Positions 5,827 through 31,546 of a stretch of 33,644 nucleotides of DNA are shown here, one piece after another. Both the position numbers and the translations under genes were made by a program. Source of the stretch: Candidatus Rokuibacteriota bacterium (lineage in GTDB: Bacteria > Methylomirabilota > Methylomirabilia > Rokubacteriales > CSP1-6); assembly GCA_003220435.1 (NCBI GenBank), contig QHSL01000015.1, positions 64,745-98,388 on the forward strand, given 5' to 3'. The notes below the pieces were generated by a model. It was not told the origin of the DNA, did no database searches, and worked only from the letters and a program-made list of their open reading frames with translations. Each line of letters begins with the position of its first letter. The stretch's first letter is position 1.

Positions 5827-7473
5827 CTACGGCGCGGTGCGAACGAGATCGGCGAGCTGGTTGAAATCGATCGGCTTGCCGATGAACGGGCGCCCGGTGC
5901 TTTCGAGAAACTGCTGCGTCGCGGCGTCGACGATGTCCCCGGTGATGAACGCGACACGCTGCGCGAGCGGTGACCGCGCCGCGACAAGCCGCTCCCAGAT
6001 CGTCGCCCCGTTGACGTCGGGCATCCGCAGATCGAGGGTCACGAGATCGTACTGGGCCCCGCACGCCGAGAGTCGCTCCCACCCCAGCTGGCCGCTGCGG
6101 GCGACCGTGACCTGGTGGCCGAGCGCCTCGAAGATCGCGCCGAAGGTTTCGGCGACGTGGTCCTCGTCGTCGACGACCAGGACGTGAGCCTTTCGCTCCG
6201 ACGCGGGCCGCTCGACGGAACGCGCCGTGCGGGGGATCGCCGGCAACGAGATGGTGAACGTGGCGCCGCCGCCCGGTGGGCTCTCGGCCCAGATGCGCCC
6301 GCCGTGAGCCTCCACGATCCTGAAGGAGATCGACAGGCCCAACCCCGTGCCCTCGCCGATGGGCTTCGTCGTGAAGAACGGCTCGAAGATCCTCGGCAGG
6401 ACCTCCGGGCGAATCCCGGACCCGCTGTCGGACACGATGAGCCGCACCGAATCGGCCTCGCCCGTCAGACGGATCATGATGTGAGGCGGTCGCCCGCTCT
6501 CCGCCACCGCATACTCGGCGTTGAGCAGCAGGTTGAGAACGACCTGCTGGAGCTGGAGCTCGTCGGCATGCAGCAGAGGCAGATCGGGCGCCGCGTCGAA
6601 GGTCAGCGCGATCCCGCGAACGCTCAGCGCCTGCCGGCGAAGCTCCAGGGCGTGCTCGACGACTTCCTCGATCTGGACGTCGGCAACCGCAGCGGGTTGG
6701 GGCCGGGCGAAGGTCGTCAGCTCACGGATGATCTTGGCCGCCCGACGCGCGCTCGTCCGGATCTTGTCGGTGCGCCTGAGGACGTCGGGATCCGAGCTGT
6801 GCTGGCTCAGGAGATCGGCCTGCCCCAGCACCACGGCCAGCGGGTTGTTGAGCTCGTGGGCGACACCGGCCACGAGCTTTCCCACGGCCGCCAGCTTACC
6901 CGCCTGGAGGAGCTGCGCCTGCGTTTCCTGGAGCTCGCGCAGCTGGGCGCGGACCTGCTCGTACAGTCGGGCGTTGTCCGCCGCCAGCGCCGCCTGATTG
7001 GCAATCGTCATCGCGAAGTCGATCTGGGCCTGGGTCCAGTGATACGGCTCGCCCTGGTCGAGGTGGATCGTGCCGACCACGGTGTCCTGACGCAGCAGCG
7101 GAACCATCAGCACGGCGCGGGCGCCGAAGGCCAGCCATCGCGGATCGGTCACATCGTCGATGGCAACCGGGCGCTTGGTCCCGAGCGCCTGGGCGTAGGT
7201 GGGCAATTCCTCCGGGCGCTGGGGCCCGAGGGCCCGAAACTTCGTCCACAGCCCTGGATCCGCGTGCCCGTCAGCGAACTGCGACATGACGGGCACGAGC
7301 CGTCCGTCCTGCCATAGACTGATCGAGCAGCGTTGAGCGCCAATCGCCTCGGCCGCGCGTCGGGCGACGATTTTCAGCACCTGCTTGAGCTCGAGCGTCG
7401 AGCTCATCGCGTTCGCGATGTCGAGCAACGCCTCGGCCGCCGAGGCCGCGTTATCCGGAATTCGCACAGCCAT
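5827..7473 (-). CDS. Hybrid sensor histidine kinase (GAF-HisKA-HATPase-receiver)
   Basis: A 548-residue soluble hybrid kinase with no membrane segment or signal peptide. A GAF domain covers about residues 25-170, followed by a short coiled coil. The HisKA motif VAHELNNPLA has the phospho-acceptor His206. The ATPase domain shows the N-box (NLLLNAE, 314-320), DSGSG (349-353), FEPFF (363-367) and GTGLGL (375-380). A C-terminal receiver (429-548) has Asp435/Asp436, phospho-acceptor Asp481, Thr511 and Lys533. The signal is probably cytosolic, sensed by GAF. No response regulator or DNA-binding partner is encoded nearby, so it is an orphan whose output must lie elsewhere. The neighbouring gene is co-directional but separated by 167 bp. 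Confidence 0.93.
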   Translation of the reverse strand: MAVRIPDNAASAAEALLDIANAMSSTLELKQVLKIVARRAAEAIGAQRCSISLWQDGRLVPVMSQFADGHADPGLWTKFRALGPQRPEELPTYAQALGTKRPVAIDDVTDPRWLAFGARAVLMVPLLRQDTVVGTIHLDQGEPYHWTQAQIDFAMTIANQAALAADNARLYEQVRAQLRELQETQAQLLQAGKLAAVGKLVAGVAHELNNPLAVVLGQADLLSQHSSDPDVLRRTDKIRTSARRAAKIIRELTTFARPQPAAVADVQIEEVVEHALELRRQALSVRGIALTFDAAPDLPLLHADELQLQQVVLNLLLNAEYAVAESGRPPHIMIRLTGEADSVRLIVSDSGSGIRPEVLPRIFEPFFTTKPIGEGTGLGLSISFRIVEAHGGRIWAESPPGGGATFTISLPAIPRTARSVERPASERKAHVLVVDDEDHVAETFGAIFEALGHQVTVARSGQLGWERLSACGAQYDLVTLDLRMPDVNGATIWERLVAARSPLAQRVAFITGDIVDAATQQFLESTGRPFIGKPIDFNQLADLVRTAP

Positions 7474-7640
7474 ATCCCGGGCAGGGTGTGAGCAGGCGTC
7501 GTGCCAGACGCCGCTCGCTCCGGTCCGAGGAATGAAATCAGCTATTTCCGCCGGTGCGCTCCTCCCGCGATCGGCGCCTGCCTCGTCTCTTTCACGTCAG
7601 ATGTGACAATGGCTGGCTCGGTCTCACCCAGGCCGCGCGT

Positions 7641-9158
7641 CTACAGCCCCACCGCGAAGAGGATGGCGTTGTTGATCGCGTAGACCGTGCCGTCGGCGCC
7701 GACGAGCGTCGGCGTGTAGGCCTCGAAGATCCCCTCGGTCAGGTCCACGGTCTGCGTGAACGTGTTCGTGGTCAGGTCCCAGCGATAGAGCTTGCCGTCC
7801 TCGCTGTTGACGAGCACCGAGTTCGTGGCGGGGTCGACGACCGCGGTGTTGATGCACCACTCGCGCACGGCGTCGGGGTGCCCGGGGCTTGGATCGGGCG
7901 TCGGCCCGATGATCGTCAGGACTTCGTCCATGACCGTGCCGCCAGTCACTGGATCGATCATCGACGTGTTGGGATCGAGCACGGCGATCTTGTTCACCCC
8001 GTCCCCGCCGGCTCCGGCGTAGTTGTTGTACTTGGTCATCAGGAGATACGACGACGCACCGGTGTACGAGGGAACAGCGGAAGCGGGAACGATCGACGCG
8101 GTGTCGTCCCAGCCGAACGCCCCGGGAATCTTCGTCTGCGTCAGGGCGCCGTTGAAGTGAAGGAGCCAGCCCCGGTCGTTGTTCGACGGGAACGGGTTCT
8201 CGAGCACGCCGAAATACACATCTCCGTCCGGACCGACGGTCGGCGACGCGGTGCCGTCGTCGGGCAGCGAGGCGTCCAGGCCGGACACCGGATCCTTCAG
8301 CCGCACGCGCGCGATCGGCGCCAGCGTCTGGCTGTCGAGCTTGACCAGATATCCCGGACCCGACGACGTGCCGTCACTGTTGTTGATGGCCACGTAGAGC
8401 GCGCTCCCATCACCCGACAGGGCCGGCGCCGAGTTGTGGACGACCTTCGTCATCGTCGCGTCAGCAGCCGCGGCGGAGGCCGCGATCCACGTACCGGTGC
8501 CGTTCGCGGTGACGCGCGCGATGCCGCTCTTGAGATTGAGCGGCGTCGATCCGGCCACCTGGAAGCCGAAGTAAATGTTGCCCGCGCTGTCCGAGGTCAA
8601 CGGAGTATTGATCATGACATTGCGGGCGAAAACGGCGGGCCGCGCCTCGAAGTTCGGGAGCCCGTAGAACGCAACCCGCCCGCTGAGCCCCGTCGGCGAG
8701 TCGGGCTGGTCGCGGAACAGCAGCGTGCCGCCGGCGCCCGGGAAGTAGAGCCGGTTGGTCGGCGTCAGGGCGGGATTGTAGCTCGGCGTCCAGTTGTGCG
8801 GCGGCAGGAGGTAGTCGGAGACGAGTTTCCATTTCAATGCCCCGTCCGCGCCGCCGTGCGCCTCCACCCGATAGAGGCCGGCCCGAGTCACCTTCACCGG
8901 TACGATGACGGTGTTAGCGGCGGTGACCACCGGAGAGCCGTAGTGGATCAGGAGCGCGCCCCCGTTGTCCTGCGGCTGAAGATCGACCGGAGTCTGCCAG
9001 CGGATCCGCACGAGCGGTTGGGACGTGACGGAGGAGAGGGCGGTGTGCTGAGCGTTCCCGGCGAACCCGCTCCATTGATAGGGCGCGGTCTGCGCCCATC
9101 CGTGCAAGGGCGTCACCACGGCGACGAGCGCGATCACGAGCGCGGTGAGCAGAGGCAT
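7641..9158 (-). CDS. Secreted PQQ-like beta-propeller protein of unknown function
   Basis: A 505-residue protein with a Sec signal peptide (hydrophobic core LLTALVIALVAVV, probable cleavage after GWAQ near residue 23). The mature part is rich in repeated blade-like segments, for example SAGNIYFGF, DGSALYVAI, DGDVYFGVL, TNSVLVNSEDGKLYRWDL and DGTVYAINN, as in PQQ-binding or WD-like beta-propellers. No PQQ-dehydrogenase catalytic signature or haem motif was seen, so an enzymatic role is not supported. The chosen ATG has AAGGAG about 8 nt upstream and starts directly at the signal peptide; the in-frame upstream ATG would bury it. It is probably periplasmic or extracellular and monocistronic, with the divergent DinB gene 149 bp away. 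Confidence 0.8.
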   Translation of the reverse strand: MPLLTALVIALVAVVTPLHGWAQTAPYQWSGFAGNAQHTALSSVTSQPLVRIRWQTPVDLQPQDNGGALLIHYGSPVVTAANTVIVPVKVTRAGLYRVEAHGGADGALKWKLVSDYLLPPHNWTPSYNPALTPTNRLYFPGAGGTLLFRDQPDSPTGLSGRVAFYGLPNFEARPAVFARNVMINTPLTSDSAGNIYFGFQVAGSTPLNLKSGIARVTANGTGTWIAASAAAADATMTKVVHNSAPALSGDGSALYVAINNSDGTSSGPGYLVKLDSQTLAPIARVRLKDPVSGLDASLPDDGTASPTVGPDGDVYFGVLENPFPSNNDRGWLLHFNGALTQTKIPGAFGWDDTASIVPASAVPSYTGASSYLLMTKYNNYAGAGGDGVNKIAVLDPNTSMIDPVTGGTVMDEVLTIIGPTPDPSPGHPDAVREWCINTAVVDPATNSVLVNSEDGKLYRWDLTTNTFTQTVDLTEGIFEAYTPTLVGADGTVYAINNAILFAVGL

Positions 9159-9797: not shown

Positions 9798-10949
9798 CTA
9801 CGGGCCCTCGTCGCGGGGTGTGGGAATCGTTCGCGCCGGGAATTCGCGGTAGGCGTAGCGTGACAATGCGTCCTCGCGGAGCTCGATGCCGAGGCCTGGG
9901 CCGGTGGGCAGTGTGAGATAGCCGCCCTCTACCTTGAACGGGACCACCGCGACTTCCGCGGCGCGGGGCTCGAAGTTCACGAAGTACTCGGTGATCAAGA
10001 AGTTCGGGATCGCCGCCGACACCTGGAGCGTCGCCGCGAGGCCGACGGTCGTGCTGTTGTAGTTGTGGGGCGAGACGACCACGTGGTACGCCTCGGCCAT
10101 CGCGGCGATCTCCCGCAGCTCCTCGATGCCGCCGACGTTGCACACGTCGGGGTTGATGATATCGGCGGCGCGACGCTCGAAGACCTCGCGGAACTCGAAG
10201 CGCGTGTAGAGCTCCTCGCCGGTGACGATCGGCAACCGGATATCGCGCCGGCACTCGGCCAGCGCGGCCACGTCGCGGGCCGACACCGGCTCCTCGTACC
10301 AGAACGGATCGAACGGCTCGAGCAGTCGGGCCAGCCGCACCGCATGCATCGGGGCCAGCCGCCGGTGCACCTCGATCAGGAGATCGACCTTGGGCCCGAC
10401 CGCGGCGCGGACGGCGCGCACCGTCTCGACGACTTGCTGCTCGGCCTCGCGCGAGATGTGCGTGCGCCACGGGCCCGGGAACGGATCGAACTTGAGTGCG
10501 GTGAAGCCGCGCGCGACCGTCTCCTTCGCCTTCGCCGCGTAAGCCTCCGGTGATCTGGCCCCCGAGTACCAGCCATTGGCGTAGACGCGGATCCGCTCGC
10601 GGCAGGGGCCGCCCAGCAGGCTCACGACCGGCACGCCGAGGCGCTTGCCGGCGAGGTCCCACAGCGCCTGCTCGAGCCCGCTGACCGCGCTCCAGAAATC
10701 CATCGCGCCGCGCTTGGAGGCAAAGTCGTGGTAGGCCCAGTGCGTGAAGTGGCGAATCTGGCCCGCGTCGCGGCCGACGAGATAGCGCGCGAGCTGGCGC
10801 ACGTGAGCGACGATCGACTGGTCGCGGTCGGCCTGGGTGTAGCACTCGCCCCAGCCGTGGAGACCGTCCGAGGTCTCGACCTTGACGAAGAGCCAGTTCT
10901 TCCCGTAGCCGGGATCGACGACGAACGGCGTGACGGCCGTCACCTTCAT
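9798..10949 (-). CDS. Mandelate racemase/muconate lactonizing-type enolase-superfamily enzyme (sugar-acid dehydratase-like)
   Basis: A 383-residue enolase-superfamily protein with an N-terminal capping domain (1-120) and a C-terminal barrel. Predicted catalytic and metal residues are K153-x-D155 (KFD), Glu193 and His195 (IEVH), Glu219 (EEP), Glu245 (GEE), Asp268 (INPD) and His295 (SPHN). The E-V-H pattern and the late SPHNYNS are most like the galactonate/mannonate dehydratase side of the family, where the His residues act in acid-sugar dehydration. The substrate is unproven. GGGAGG lies just upstream of the chosen ATG. Its leader carries the nested palindromic element at 10980-11098, and the gene is divergent from the alkylsulfatase-type gene. 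Confidence 0.87.
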   Translation of the reverse strand: MKVTAVTPFVVDPGYGKNWLFVKVETSDGLHGWGECYTQADRDQSIVAHVRQLARYLVGRDAGQIRHFTHWAYHDFASKRGAMDFWSAVSGLEQALWDLAGKRLGVPVVSLLGGPCRERIRVYANGWYSGARSPEAYAAKAKETVARGFTALKFDPFPGPWRTHISREAEQQVVETVRAVRAAVGPKVDLLIEVHRRLAPMHAVRLARLLEPFDPFWYEEPVSARDVAALAECRRDIRLPIVTGEELYTRFEFREVFERRAADIINPDVCNVGGIEELREIAAMAEAYHVVVSPHNYNSTTVGLAATLQVSAAIPNFLITEYFVNFEPRAAEVAVVPFKVEGGYLTLPTGPGLGIELREDALSRYAYREFPARTIPTPRDEGP

Positions 10950-10979
10950 GAGCCGACCTCCCTCTCCTGGCGTACCGTG

Positions 10980-11098
10980 GTGCGCGCCGCAGGCCGTCGC
11001 GGGGCCGTCGTGCGAGCCGCAGGGCCGCCCGGGGGCTGGGGTCCCCAGGCCCGAGGCGAGCGATGCGAACAGTCCCCGCCGGCCGAGGCGCGGCCATA
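10980..11098 (-). repeat. Palindromic element (subfamily A) split by a subfamily B copy
   Basis: 10980-11004 matches the first 25 bases of the reverse-oriented element seen intact at 21571-21629. 11074-11093 matches its last part (CCCCGCCGGCCGAGGCGCGG). Between them, 11010-11061 is a second element with GCGAGC-type arms, most like the copy at 16389-16446. The break falls at the loop of the outer palindrome, where the 6 bases CTGGGG are missing. The element reads in the sense of the enolase-superfamily gene, 31 nt from its start. It fills most of the 190-bp divergent intergenic region. Confidence 0.75.
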
Positions 11099-11139
11099 GA
11101 ATCCTGGAGGCCGCTAGACTACCAGATCGAGGAGGCCCG

Positions 11140-13041
11140 ATGAACGACGCGACGCCGATCACGATCGCCCAGAATCGCGCGGTGCTCGACAGGCTTCCGT
11201 TCGCCGACACGCAGGACTTCCACGACGCGCGCCGGGGCTTCCTGGGCACGCTGCCCGAGGTCGAGATCACGAGCGCCGAGGGGCGCCTCGTGTGGAGCCT
11301 GCGCGACTACGCGTTCCTGGGTGACGAGACCGCGCCGCCCACGGTGAATCCGAGTCTCTGGCGACAGGCGCGCCTGAACATGAGCCATGGGCTCTTTCGC
11401 GTCACCGAGCGGATCTATCAGATCCGCGGCTTCGACATCTCGAACATGACGGTGATCGAGGGCGAGCGCGGGATCATCGTGATCGATCCGCTGCTCTCGA
11501 CCGAGGTCGCCCGCGCGGGCCTGGCGCTCTACGCGGAGCACCGGGGGCGCCGGCCCATCACCGCCCTCATCTACACGCACAGCCACGTCGACCACTACGG
11601 CGGCGTGCGCGGCGTGGTCGACGAGGACGACGTGAAGGCCGGACGCCTCGAGATCTGGGCGCCCGACGGCTTCATGGAAGCGGCGGTGCGGGAGAACGTG
11701 CTCGCCGGCACCGTGATGGTCCGCCGGGCGCAGTTCCAGTTCGGCGCCACGCTCCCCAAAGGTCCCCGCGGCCAGGTCGACGCGGGCCTCGGCAAGGTGA
11801 CGTCGCGCGGGACCGTGACGCTCATCCCGCCCACGCGGACCATCGCCGCGCCGATCGAGACCCACCGCCTCGACGGCGTCGAGATCGTGTTCCAGCTCGC
11901 TCCGGAAACGGAGGCGCCGGCCGAGATGCACATGTTCTATCCCGAGCTGCGGGCGCTGAACCTCGCCGAGAACGCCACCCACAACCTCCACAACGTGTAT
12001 CCGATCCGCGGCGCCCAGGTGCGCGACGCCAACGCGTGGGCCAAGTACCTGAACGAGGCAATGGAGCGGTTCGGCCGCGGCGCCGACGTCGTGTTCGCCC
12101 AGCACCACTGGCCCGTGTGGGACACGCCGCGCGTCCTCGACTTCATGGCTAAGCAGCGCGACCTCTACAAGTACGTGCACGACCAGACCGTGCGCCTCAT
12201 GAACCACGGGCACAAGGCCGCCGAGATCGCCGAGCGTCTCACCCTGCCCCGGAGCCTCGGCACGACGTGGCACGTGCGCGGCTACTACGGCACGCTCAGC
12301 CACAACGCGAAGTCGGTGTACCAGCGCTACATCGGCTGGTACGACGCCAACCCGGCGAACCTGAACCCGCTACCGCCCGTCGAGCGCGGGCGCAAGTACG
12401 TCGAGTACATGGGCGGGGCCGACGCCGCGATCCGGCGGGCCCGGGAGGACTTCGCGCGCGGCGAGTATCGGTTCGTCGCCGAAGCCATGAGCCACGTAGT
12501 CTTCGCCGATCCGGCGAACACCGACGCGCGCCGCCTGGGCGCCGACGCGCTGGAGCAGCTCGGCTACGCGGCCGAGTCCGCCACCTGGCGCAACGCGTAC
12601 CTGCTCGGCGCGCTCGAGCTCCGGCAGGCCCAGCCCGCGTCGGCCGCGCGCGCGCCCGTGAGCCCGGACGTCGTCCACGCCATGAGCCTCGATCTCTTCT
12701 TCGATTATCTGGGCGTGCGGCTCGACGGCGCGCGGGCCGAGGGCCGGCGCCTGGTCATCAACTGGGTGTTCCCCGACCTCGACCGGCGCTACGTGCTGAA
12801 TCTCCAGAACAGCGCGCTGACCTATCTGGCCGATCGGCAGAGCGACCGCGCCGACGCGACGGTGACGCTCGATCGGCCGACGCTGAGCCGCCTGCTCCTC
12901 AAGGAGGTCCGGCTGGACGACGGGCTCCGCAGCGGGCTGATCACCGTCGACGGCCAGTCGTCCGCGGTCGGCGAGCTGTTCGGCCTCCTCGACGACTTCA
13001 CGCTGATGTTCGAGGTCGTGGAGCCGAAGCGCGCGTCGTGA
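11140..13041 (+). CDS. Alkylsulfatase-type metallo-beta-lactamase-fold hydrolase
   Basis: A 633-residue protein of the SdsA1/BDS1 alkylsulfatase family. The N-terminal metallo-beta-lactamase domain has H147-S-H149-V-D151-H152, Glu258 or Glu262 in TEAPAEM, Glu277 in AENATHNLHN and His322 in AQHHWPVW. These fit the binuclear zinc site. A helical dimerisation part with the family signature GYYGTLSHNAKSVYQRY (381-397) follows, then a C-terminal SCP2-like domain (about 520-633) that would bind the alkyl chain. Family enzymes release sulfate from primary or secondary alkyl sulfates. No signal peptide is visible, unlike exported SdsA1, so it is probably cytoplasmic. GAGGAGG precedes the ATG at 11140, although the frame stays open upstream through the repeat. 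Confidence 0.9.
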   Translation: MNDATPITIAQNRAVLDRLPFADTQDFHDARRGFLGTLPEVEITSAEGRLVWSLRDYAFLGDETAPPTVNPSLWRQARLNMSHGLFRVTERIYQIRGFDISNMTVIEGERGIIVIDPLLSTEVARAGLALYAEHRGRRPITALIYTHSHVDHYGGVRGVVDEDDVKAGRLEIWAPDGFMEAAVRENVLAGTVMVRRAQFQFGATLPKGPRGQVDAGLGKVTSRGTVTLIPPTRTIAAPIETHRLDGVEIVFQLAPETEAPAEMHMFYPELRALNLAENATHNLHNVYPIRGAQVRDANAWAKYLNEAMERFGRGADVVFAQHHWPVWDTPRVLDFMAKQRDLYKYVHDQTVRLMNHGHKAAEIAERLTLPRSLGTTWHVRGYYGTLSHNAKSVYQRYIGWYDANPANLNPLPPVERGRKYVEYMGGADAAIRRAREDFARGEYRFVAEAMSHVVFADPANTDARRLGADALEQLGYAAESATWRNAYLLGALELRQAQPASAARAPVSPDVVHAMSLDLFFDYLGVRLDGARAEGRRLVINWVFPDLDRRYVLNLQNSALTYLADRQSDRADATVTLDRPTLSRLLLKEVRLDDGLRSGLITVDGQSSAVGELFGLLDDFTLMFEVVEPKRAS

Positions 13042-16369: not shown

Positions 16370-16397
16370 CTATATGGCCTATATGGCTCTATATGGC
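16370..16397. repeat. Three near-tandem CTATATGGC repeats
   Basis: CTATATGGC occurs at 16370-16378, 16379-16387 and 16389-16397. The third copy is also the left end of the palindromic element that follows. They lie directly before the small-subunit ribosome site, on the upstream side of a minus-strand gene. Confidence 0.85.
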
Positions 16398-16446
16398 TCG
16401 CCTCGGGCGGCGGGTCCCCAGCCCCGCGACGCCCTGCGGCTCGCAC
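16389..16446 (+). repeat. Palindromic element, subfamily B
   Basis: A copy with GCTCGC-type arms: CTATATGGCTCGCCTCGG at the left and CCTGCGGCTCGCACT at the right, around CCCCAGCCCCG. It lies between the medium and small subunit genes of the molybdenum hydroxylase and is antisense to them. Its closest relative in the window is the inner copy at 11010-11061. Confidence 0.8.
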
Positions 16447-17427: not shown

Positions 17428-17474
17428 TTGTCGCCGCGCCTCAGCCGGCGGGGCCCGAGCCCCGCGACGGCTTA
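17428..17474 (+). repeat. Palindromic element, right end truncated
   Basis: It begins TTGTCGCCGCGCCTCAGCCG, continues through GCCCCGCGACGGC and stops there. The right arm seen elsewhere (CTGCGGCGCGCAC) is replaced by CTTACATAGGGAG, which leads into the ribosome site of the gene at 17492. It reads in the sense of that gene and ends 17 nt before its ATG. Confidence 0.75.
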
Positions 17475-21570: not shown

Positions 21571-21629
21571 GTGCGTGCCGCAGGCCGTCGCGGGGCTGGG
21601 GCCCCGCCGGCCGAGGCGCGGTTACAAAT
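21571..21629 (-). repeat. Palindromic element, intact copy (subfamily A)
   Basis: It reads GTGCGTGCCGCAGGCCGTCG at its left end, then CGGGGCTGGGGCCCCG and GCCGAGGCGCGGTTACAAAT. On the minus strand it is in the sense of the MetE-like gene and ends 22 nt from its ATG. It also lies 17 nt past the stop of the upstream gamma-glutamyltransferase gene. This copy serves as the reference for the split copy at 10980-11098. Confidence 0.85.
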
Positions 21630-23449: not shown

Positions 23450-23857
23450 CGGCTCGGTGCTCCCTTTTGTATTCGCGCCTCGGCCGGCGGGCCCCCGCCC
23501 CGCGACGGCCTGCGGCGCGCACTTCCCCTTTGTATTCGCGCCTCGGCCGGCGGGGCCCCAGCCCCGCGACGGCCTGCGGCGCGCACTTCCCCTTTGTATT
23601 CGCGCCTCGGCCGGCGGGGCCCCAGCCCCGCGACGGCCTGCGGCGCGCACTTCCTTCGTATATTTGGCCCGGACGAACCGATACCGCGCGGCGACGGGCC
23701 GGTCAAGCTGAATAGTAGCGCTAGGGCAAGAGATCGGCGACGGAGATCCGGGCCGTGGAGAGGCTCGCCTTGTGCAAGCGGTCGACGGCGGGGCTCGAGC
23801 GCGACTTCCGCGACCAGCACCGGATCGGCCGATGCGCGTCGGCATAGTCGCGGACGG
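23450..23857. other. 408-bp intergenic region: tandem palindromic array plus unassigned sequence
   Basis: The first half (to 23650) is the 64-bp tandem array described separately. From 23651 to about 23700 the sequence is less GC-rich (TTCGTATATTTGGCC). From 23720 to 23857 the minus strand reads open but matches nothing I recognise and has no start signal, so it may be decayed coding sequence. No promoter can be placed with confidence. Confidence 0.5.
23468..23650 (+). repeat. Tandem array of three palindromic elements (64-bp period)
   Basis: Copies lie at 23468-23522, 23531-23586 and 23595-23650, each beginning TGTATTCGCGCCTCGG and ending TGCGGCGCGCAC. The two linkers are identical 8-mers, TTCCCCTT. 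The second and third copies are identical; the first differs only in its central run (GGGCCCCCGCCCC instead of GGGGCCCCAGCCCC). Each copy can fold as an imperfect hairpin with CGGGG/CCCCG at its centre. The array begins 19 nt upstream of the gamma-glutamyltransferase start and is antisense to it. Confidence 0.95.
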
Positions 23858-31488: not shown

Positions 31489-31546
31489 TTTATAGGCGCG
31501 CCTCAGCCGGCAGGGCCCCAGCCCCGCGACGGCTTGCGGCGCGCAC
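31489..31546 (+). repeat. Palindromic element, subfamily A
   Basis: It begins TTTATAGGCGCGCCTCAGCC, continues through GCCCCAGCCCCGCGACGGC and ends TTGCGGCGCGCAC. It abuts the ribosome site of the NIPSNAP gene on one side and reads in the sense of the MetE-like gene that starts 91 nt downstream. Confidence 0.85.

Follow-up and report, generated by a model that had tools for sequence, protein, structure and literature searches.

The stretch of DNA analysed here (33,644 nucleotides, hereafter called the window) belongs to a Rokubacteriota MAG of 5.44 Mb in 147 contigs (G000), from an uncultured group of soil bacteria. It carries at 9798-10949, on the minus strand, a gene for a mandelate racemase/muconate lactonising-type enzyme and at 11140-13041, on the plus strand, a gene for an alkyl sulfatase with a metallo-beta-lactamase fold. 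Between the start codons of these two divergent genes sits a composite palindromic element (10977..11101, plus strand), made of an outer unit and of an inner unit placed in its loop. Read along the plus strand, it consists of the left arm of the outer element (GTGCGCGCCGCAGGCCGTCGCGGGG, 10980..11004); a left linker CCGTC (11005..11009), which has a constant position in all copies, with the consensus CCGCA, and probably forms the 5' edge of the inner part; the inner element (11010..11061), with an apex of type 2 (GCCCGGGGGCTGGGG-type); a right linker (11062..11073), taken here to be the inner unit's 3' tail, as it resembles the 3' tails of stand-alone inner-type units (GAGCGATCCAATCG, GAGCGATACGGAAC); and the right arm of the outer element (CCCCGCCGGCCGAGGCGCGG, 11074..11093). 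A sequence-only reading had already described an element broken at its loop by a complete relative with different arms, and its coordinates for both partners turned out to be exact: the two outer arms are, without a single mismatch, those of a local simple palindrome of about 51 bp, from which only the six apical bases CTGGGG are absent, as that reading had said, and the inner copy has the conserved base of this simple element with a different apex and a stem of its own, GGGCC/GGCCC instead of GGCCG/CGGCC.

The window holds further units of the same kind. Four of these loci are on the minus strand, namely a stand-alone element with a GGGC/GCCC stem and an apex of type 1 (16397..16446), a truncated simple element (17428..17473), three intact simple elements in tandem with a period of 64 (23473..23650) and one more intact simple element (31497..31546); another simple element is on the plus strand (21571..21620). 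The motif GTGCGAGCCGCAGG, allowing at most 2 mismatches, is present 12 times in the window for 1.8 expected, a count that none of 100 shuffles reached. The window also starts with two identical 40-bp copies of GTCCGAGCGCTGGGGGGTTTGGGGGGCCCGTCGAGGCCCC (1-40 and 89-128), with a spacing of 88 bp.

The base of the unit is conserved (5' GTGCGMGCCGCAG ... CGAGGCGMGC 3') and continues into a short TATRA-like 3' tail; above it, the paired stem varies and leads to a GC-rich apex whose loop is CTGGGG. The ends read GTGCG and GAGGCGMG, the stem counts 16 pairs with internal loops, and the invariant positions are concentrated in the base and in the GA-rich internal loops. As the fold of a single copy is not unusual for such a GC-rich base composition (z -1.1), the structural evidence rests on covariation. 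Among 33 composites, 96% of the cells of the 25 nested pairs, those of the inner element included, are standard; double-change cells number 16 for 1.9 in shuffles, and sliding the partner abolishes most of this signal; among 20 simple units, we counted 20 double-change cells for 4.5 in shuffles, and one stem pair was seen as CG, AU, GC, UA and UG. Judging from these substitutions, both storeys are kept as paired stems across genera.

The composite is itself a multi-copy element. Used as a query against its own genome, it returned 12 more near-full-length copies (86-94% identity, E 1e-32 to 1e-47), giving a total of 13 composites with identical architecture and junctions; the order is always outer-left arm, CCGNN linker, inner unit, GATGCGAACAG-like linker and outer-right arm, the left outer arm being truncated in one copy (L011). 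The same layout was found in all eight other genomes of the genus. Beyond the genus, at least five genera of the same family have it too, at 76-86% identity (G032, G029, G014, G020, and G033); no match was obtained among plasmids. With 13 composites sharing their junctions, the split seen in the window is not a local accident, and nesting would rather have occurred once or a few times, with later copying of the composite as such or into simple elements already present. The initial proposal that one hairpin had inserted into the tip of another thus holds for the nested anatomy and fails as a one-off local event; its own caveat, that the halves might match no better than random GC-rich sequence, is answered by the exact matches to the family and by the E values of the genomic copies. 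A covariance model of the simple unit found at least 95 units in the genome and matches in 30 of the 59 relatives searched, all of one order, with no match in the more distant families of the class among those 59; within the genomes sampled, the family is confined to the order of this Rokubacteriota genome.

One has to consider that all the genomes compared are fragmented MAGs and that the units are repeats, so that short-read assembly might have misjoined them. Such an artefact is hardly credible: a composite of about 118 bp fits within one ordinary short read, the same junctions come back in many independent MAGs and genera, and orthologous sites have matching flanks on either side.

We compared these orthologous sites through flank searches, most pairs coming from the closest relative, G003. 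At the site of the window composite, both flanks are shared with G003 (L086), which has there the intact outer element without the inner one (GTGCGCGCCGCAGGCCGTCGCGGGGCTGGGCCCGCCGGCCGAGGCGCGG), that is, the very state that the sequence-only reading had proposed to look for. No such element is present at this site in G001, G002, and G005-G008; short head-like sequences are found in G001 and G008 only. These are head-only units (GTGCGAGCCGCAG...GGCGAGGCGAGCC, 24-36 bp, devoid of apical stem; L093:494-523 in G001 and L090:3442-3465 in G008), a type of mini-unit also seen elsewhere in arrays (L170) and as guests in G011. As for the neighbouring alkyl sulfatase gene (11140-13041 in the window), it is decayed in G003, with a large internal deletion (L086:2900-3513), and lies on a different contig in G002, G005, G006, and G007; the composite and this gene may have arrived together at this position.

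Six orthologous pairs associate a composite with a simple element at one site, and they do so in both directions. Four have the composite in G000 and the simple element in G003 (window/L086, L003/L106, L012/L115, and L013/L116), one is the reverse (composite C90 in G003, simple L180 in G000), and the sixth opposes a composite of G008 (L182) to a simple element of G007 (L183). Overall, the counterparts in G003 of the 13 composites of G000 are simple at 4 sites (window, L003, L012, and L013) and without element at 6 (L002 and L006-L010, L008 and L009 being less clean), 3 sites being unscored; conversely, the seven composites of G003 correspond in G000 to a simple element at 1 site (C90) and to none at 5 (C91, C112b, C37, C105, and C16), 1 being unresolved. 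The partner is thus empty at 11 composite sites, and we left out of scoring L004, L005, L011, and C112a of G003, where the partner region is rearranged or contains another repeat. Clean empty sites at so many orthologous positions indicate that the elements are mobile, or were so recently; the sequence-only reading, too, had suggested that they move or once moved. The units at 16397, 17428, and 21571 of the window are likewise missing at the orthologous sites of G003 (a clean empty site for the latter), which points to a high turnover. The clean sites L007 and L010 were also compared with G003 for the fixed target-site duplication that, together with terminal inverted repeats, would mark a MITE of a cut-and-paste transposon: CCTTA is present on both sides at L010, and no clear duplication was seen at L007. 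In G002, the intergenic gap at the L006 site, where G000 has a composite, contains tandem copies of an unrelated small palindrome (CCGCGACTGAGAGTCGCGGGAGCG, L148); at a site within the window (site D), G007 has a composite accompanied by an additional gene of some 1 kb (L087, near 6789-8199), G000 a simple element, and G003 nothing.

This comparison also bears on the view that the elements are conserved regulatory structures of RNA or DNA, such as mRNA stabilisers or attenuators, that do not move and whose two-storey form would be a functional variant. Their extragenic location, in many cases downstream of a stop codon and ahead of the following ribosome-binding site, would suit such a role, as would stems kept paired across genera above a nearly invariant base with GA-rich internal loops; however, folding is also needed for a transposition that recognises hairpins, and the sites are not conserved, since none of these sites holds a composite in G000 and G003 alike and most of the G000 sites are empty in G003, with the same genes on either side. 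Furthermore, Rfam 15 gave no match above the gathering score in the window. We, thus, hold a purely regulatory explanation to be quite improbable.

Where does the inner unit come from? Stand-alone units nearly identical to the inner sequence (GCGAGCCGCAGGGC-GCCCGGGGGCTGGGGCCCCCAGGCCCGAGGCGAGCGAT; about 94-96% identity) exist in G008 and G001, and their 3' tails are like the right linker of the composite. The best inner-only matches in G000 reach just 82-84% identity, so that its own genome offers no close stand-alone source. Other associations of inner and outer units at the same loop position were found: in G011 (L064), a 36-bp mini-element is nested there and the outer loop GGGGCCCC is retained, and further combinations occur in G025 (L067) and G013 (L062), as well as in G032 (L209/L210), whose copies lie at the end of arrays and lack the right outer half. 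Nesting has, therefore, occurred more than once. These combinations, the stand-alone inner-type units of G001 and G008, and the known role of bacterial REPs as hot spots of IS insertion (PMC1525189) are what could be expected from a fresh transposition each time, a mobile unit inserting specifically into the loop of another and every composite being independent. We nevertheless find this unlikely as a general rule, as the inner part, both junctions, and the loss of CTGGGG are identical in every composite of the genus, G000 has no close stand-alone donor, and the genus has no Y1 transposase.

Indeed, the machinery of the TnpA_REP/Y1 type that had been suspected elsewhere in the genome was not found there or in the other genomes of the genus: no Y1/RAYT gene (PF01797) was detected at E<=1 in any of the nine genomes of the genus, the positive controls being matched, and we discarded Y1/RAYT as the mover for this reason. 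In the wider family, 8 of 40 genomes have a PF01797 gene, and no element was found within 1.5 kb of the eight Y1 loci examined (L078-L085).

The elements resemble REPs in being short, hairpin-forming, extragenic (the gaps that hold them lie between genes), and present in high copy (at least 95 units). A constant GTAG tag outside the stem was not found among 95 distinct units: the bases preceding GCG are TAGT (13), TGGT (15), CAGT (26), or TCGT (11), GTAG-like sequences being in the minority, and, with neither this tag nor the transposase found, we do not class the elements as GTAG REPs. The CGTC type, with its CGTC end, its stem of 8-9 bp, and its loop of 4-5 nt, was rejected in view of the ends and of the 16-pair stem with internal loops described above. 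A REPIN pairs two inverted REPs around a spacer; this class was rejected too, as the composite reads L-L-R-R, nested, and the arrays read L-R-L-R. A search of the literature on palindromic repeats in Rokubacteria returned nothing relevant.

The closest known analogues are found in organelles and among bacteria. In yeast mitochondria, a given homologous position can carry a stand-alone GC42 cluster in one strain and a merged cluster (86 nt) in another (PMC4478555), and our six orthologous pairs likewise have one form or the other at one site. Like the Rokubacteriota elements, yeast GC clusters are short GC-rich palindromes in many copies, with a fast turnover between strains and no coding capacity; unlike them, they belong to a eukaryotic organelle, have an unrelated sequence, and show short AG or ACT repeats at their flanks (PMC4478555), while we saw no consistent target duplication. 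The work on Volvox carteri organelles describes palindromes inserted into palindromes, some of the larger composites being present at several places, a likeness in nesting and in recurring composites that goes with a difference in loops (TAAA/TTTA) and in the organellar nature of the DNA (PMC2670323). Among bacteria, REPs set in other palindromes have been reported for GTAG-15 of Anabaena variabilis, GTAG-23 of Thermomicrobium roseum, and CGTC-1 of Halothiobacillus neapolitanus (PMC3733652). The GTAG and CGTC super-families share with our elements the extragenic location in bacteria, the hairpin, the high copy number, the tandem clusters, and, for some, the nesting (PMC3733652), but the Rokubacteriota hairpin is longer, with conserved internal loops, no constant tag, and no Y1/RAYT in the genus, and its host palindrome is from the same family as the guest. 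REPINs, which are paired inverted REPs moved by RAYTs, also are larger units of two REP-like parts dispersed as a whole (PMC3116915), the Rokubacteriota composite differing in that one complete unit lies within the loop of another. The Rokubacteriota elements work like these merging mobile palindromes, and they give the GC clusters that merge in yeast mitochondria a counterpart among bacteria.

The direction of change could be weakly polarised at one site only, L012, where the more distant G006 (L130) has three simple elements, which makes the simple form the likelier older state there. At L013, where the inner part is diverged, the composite may be old and the partner may have lost the inner part. 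Such a loss could be extended to the whole family, the composite being then an ancestral long hairpin and the simple elements deriving from it by loss of the middle. The layout is indeed old and common to several genera, and the simple apex could in theory be obtained exactly by a pair of deletions at GGGG/CCCC repeats; but these deletions would have to be coordinated, and no half-deleted form was found among the sequences examined, against 61 simple and 59 inner apices (seven pattern hits proved to be the full inner apex of composites or, in one instance, a shortened simple apex), which supports the direction of gain. As simple elements are also far commoner, including in genomes where no composite was seen, and as relatives of the inner part with a similar 3' tail occur on their own, we regard an ancestral composite as rather improbable.

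Taken together, we think it probable that this is a REP-like family that nests at hairpin tips and whose composites are copied, and exchanged with simple copies at fixed sites. The composite would have arisen when a complete unit, differing in its stem and bringing along its 3' tail, entered the loop of another; composites would then be copied whole to new intergenic sites and alternate with the simple form at a given site, the inner part being copied from another composite into an existing simple element by short-tract gene conversion or by template switching through the arms that the two forms have in common. There is good support for an origin of the composite by nesting at the tip. The later alternation is most likely a matter of copying and not of fresh transposition each time, since the junctions and the lost CTGGGG are always identical and the genome has no close stand-alone source, and gain of the inner part is likelier to be the more frequent event than its loss. 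When the 3' tails are included, the partners of matched orthologous pairs are more alike than re-paired ones, with a sum of 48.0 for a permutation mean of 56.3, and 0.6% of 720 permutations are as low. The arms alone give no signal (37.0 for orthologous and 38.2 for re-paired arms, 39% of permutations as low) because they are nearly uniform across the family, so that an entire simple element may instead have been exchanged for an entire composite. The correlation between outer and inner distances is weak (Mantel r 0.40, p 0.018), which fits composites that move, in part, as complete units.

The before/after pairs offered by the sister species (at least six composite/simple and 11 composite/empty) make the route of insertion and nesting readable from sequence, and they bear on how REP-like elements can spread without a RAYT gene. 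A bolder and tentative suggestion is that hairpin tips would be preferred entry points, palindromes growing by nesting and being exchanged storey by storey without Y1 transposase, through an undescribed enzyme or replication template switching at the tip of the hairpin. Tandem arrays give a side view of the units: in G014 (L060), composite and simple copies stand side by side with identical unit edges, and in G020 the third copy of an array (L207:319-430) has its apex swapped for a different GC-rich stretch of 40 bp, another sign of rearrangement at the unit tip.
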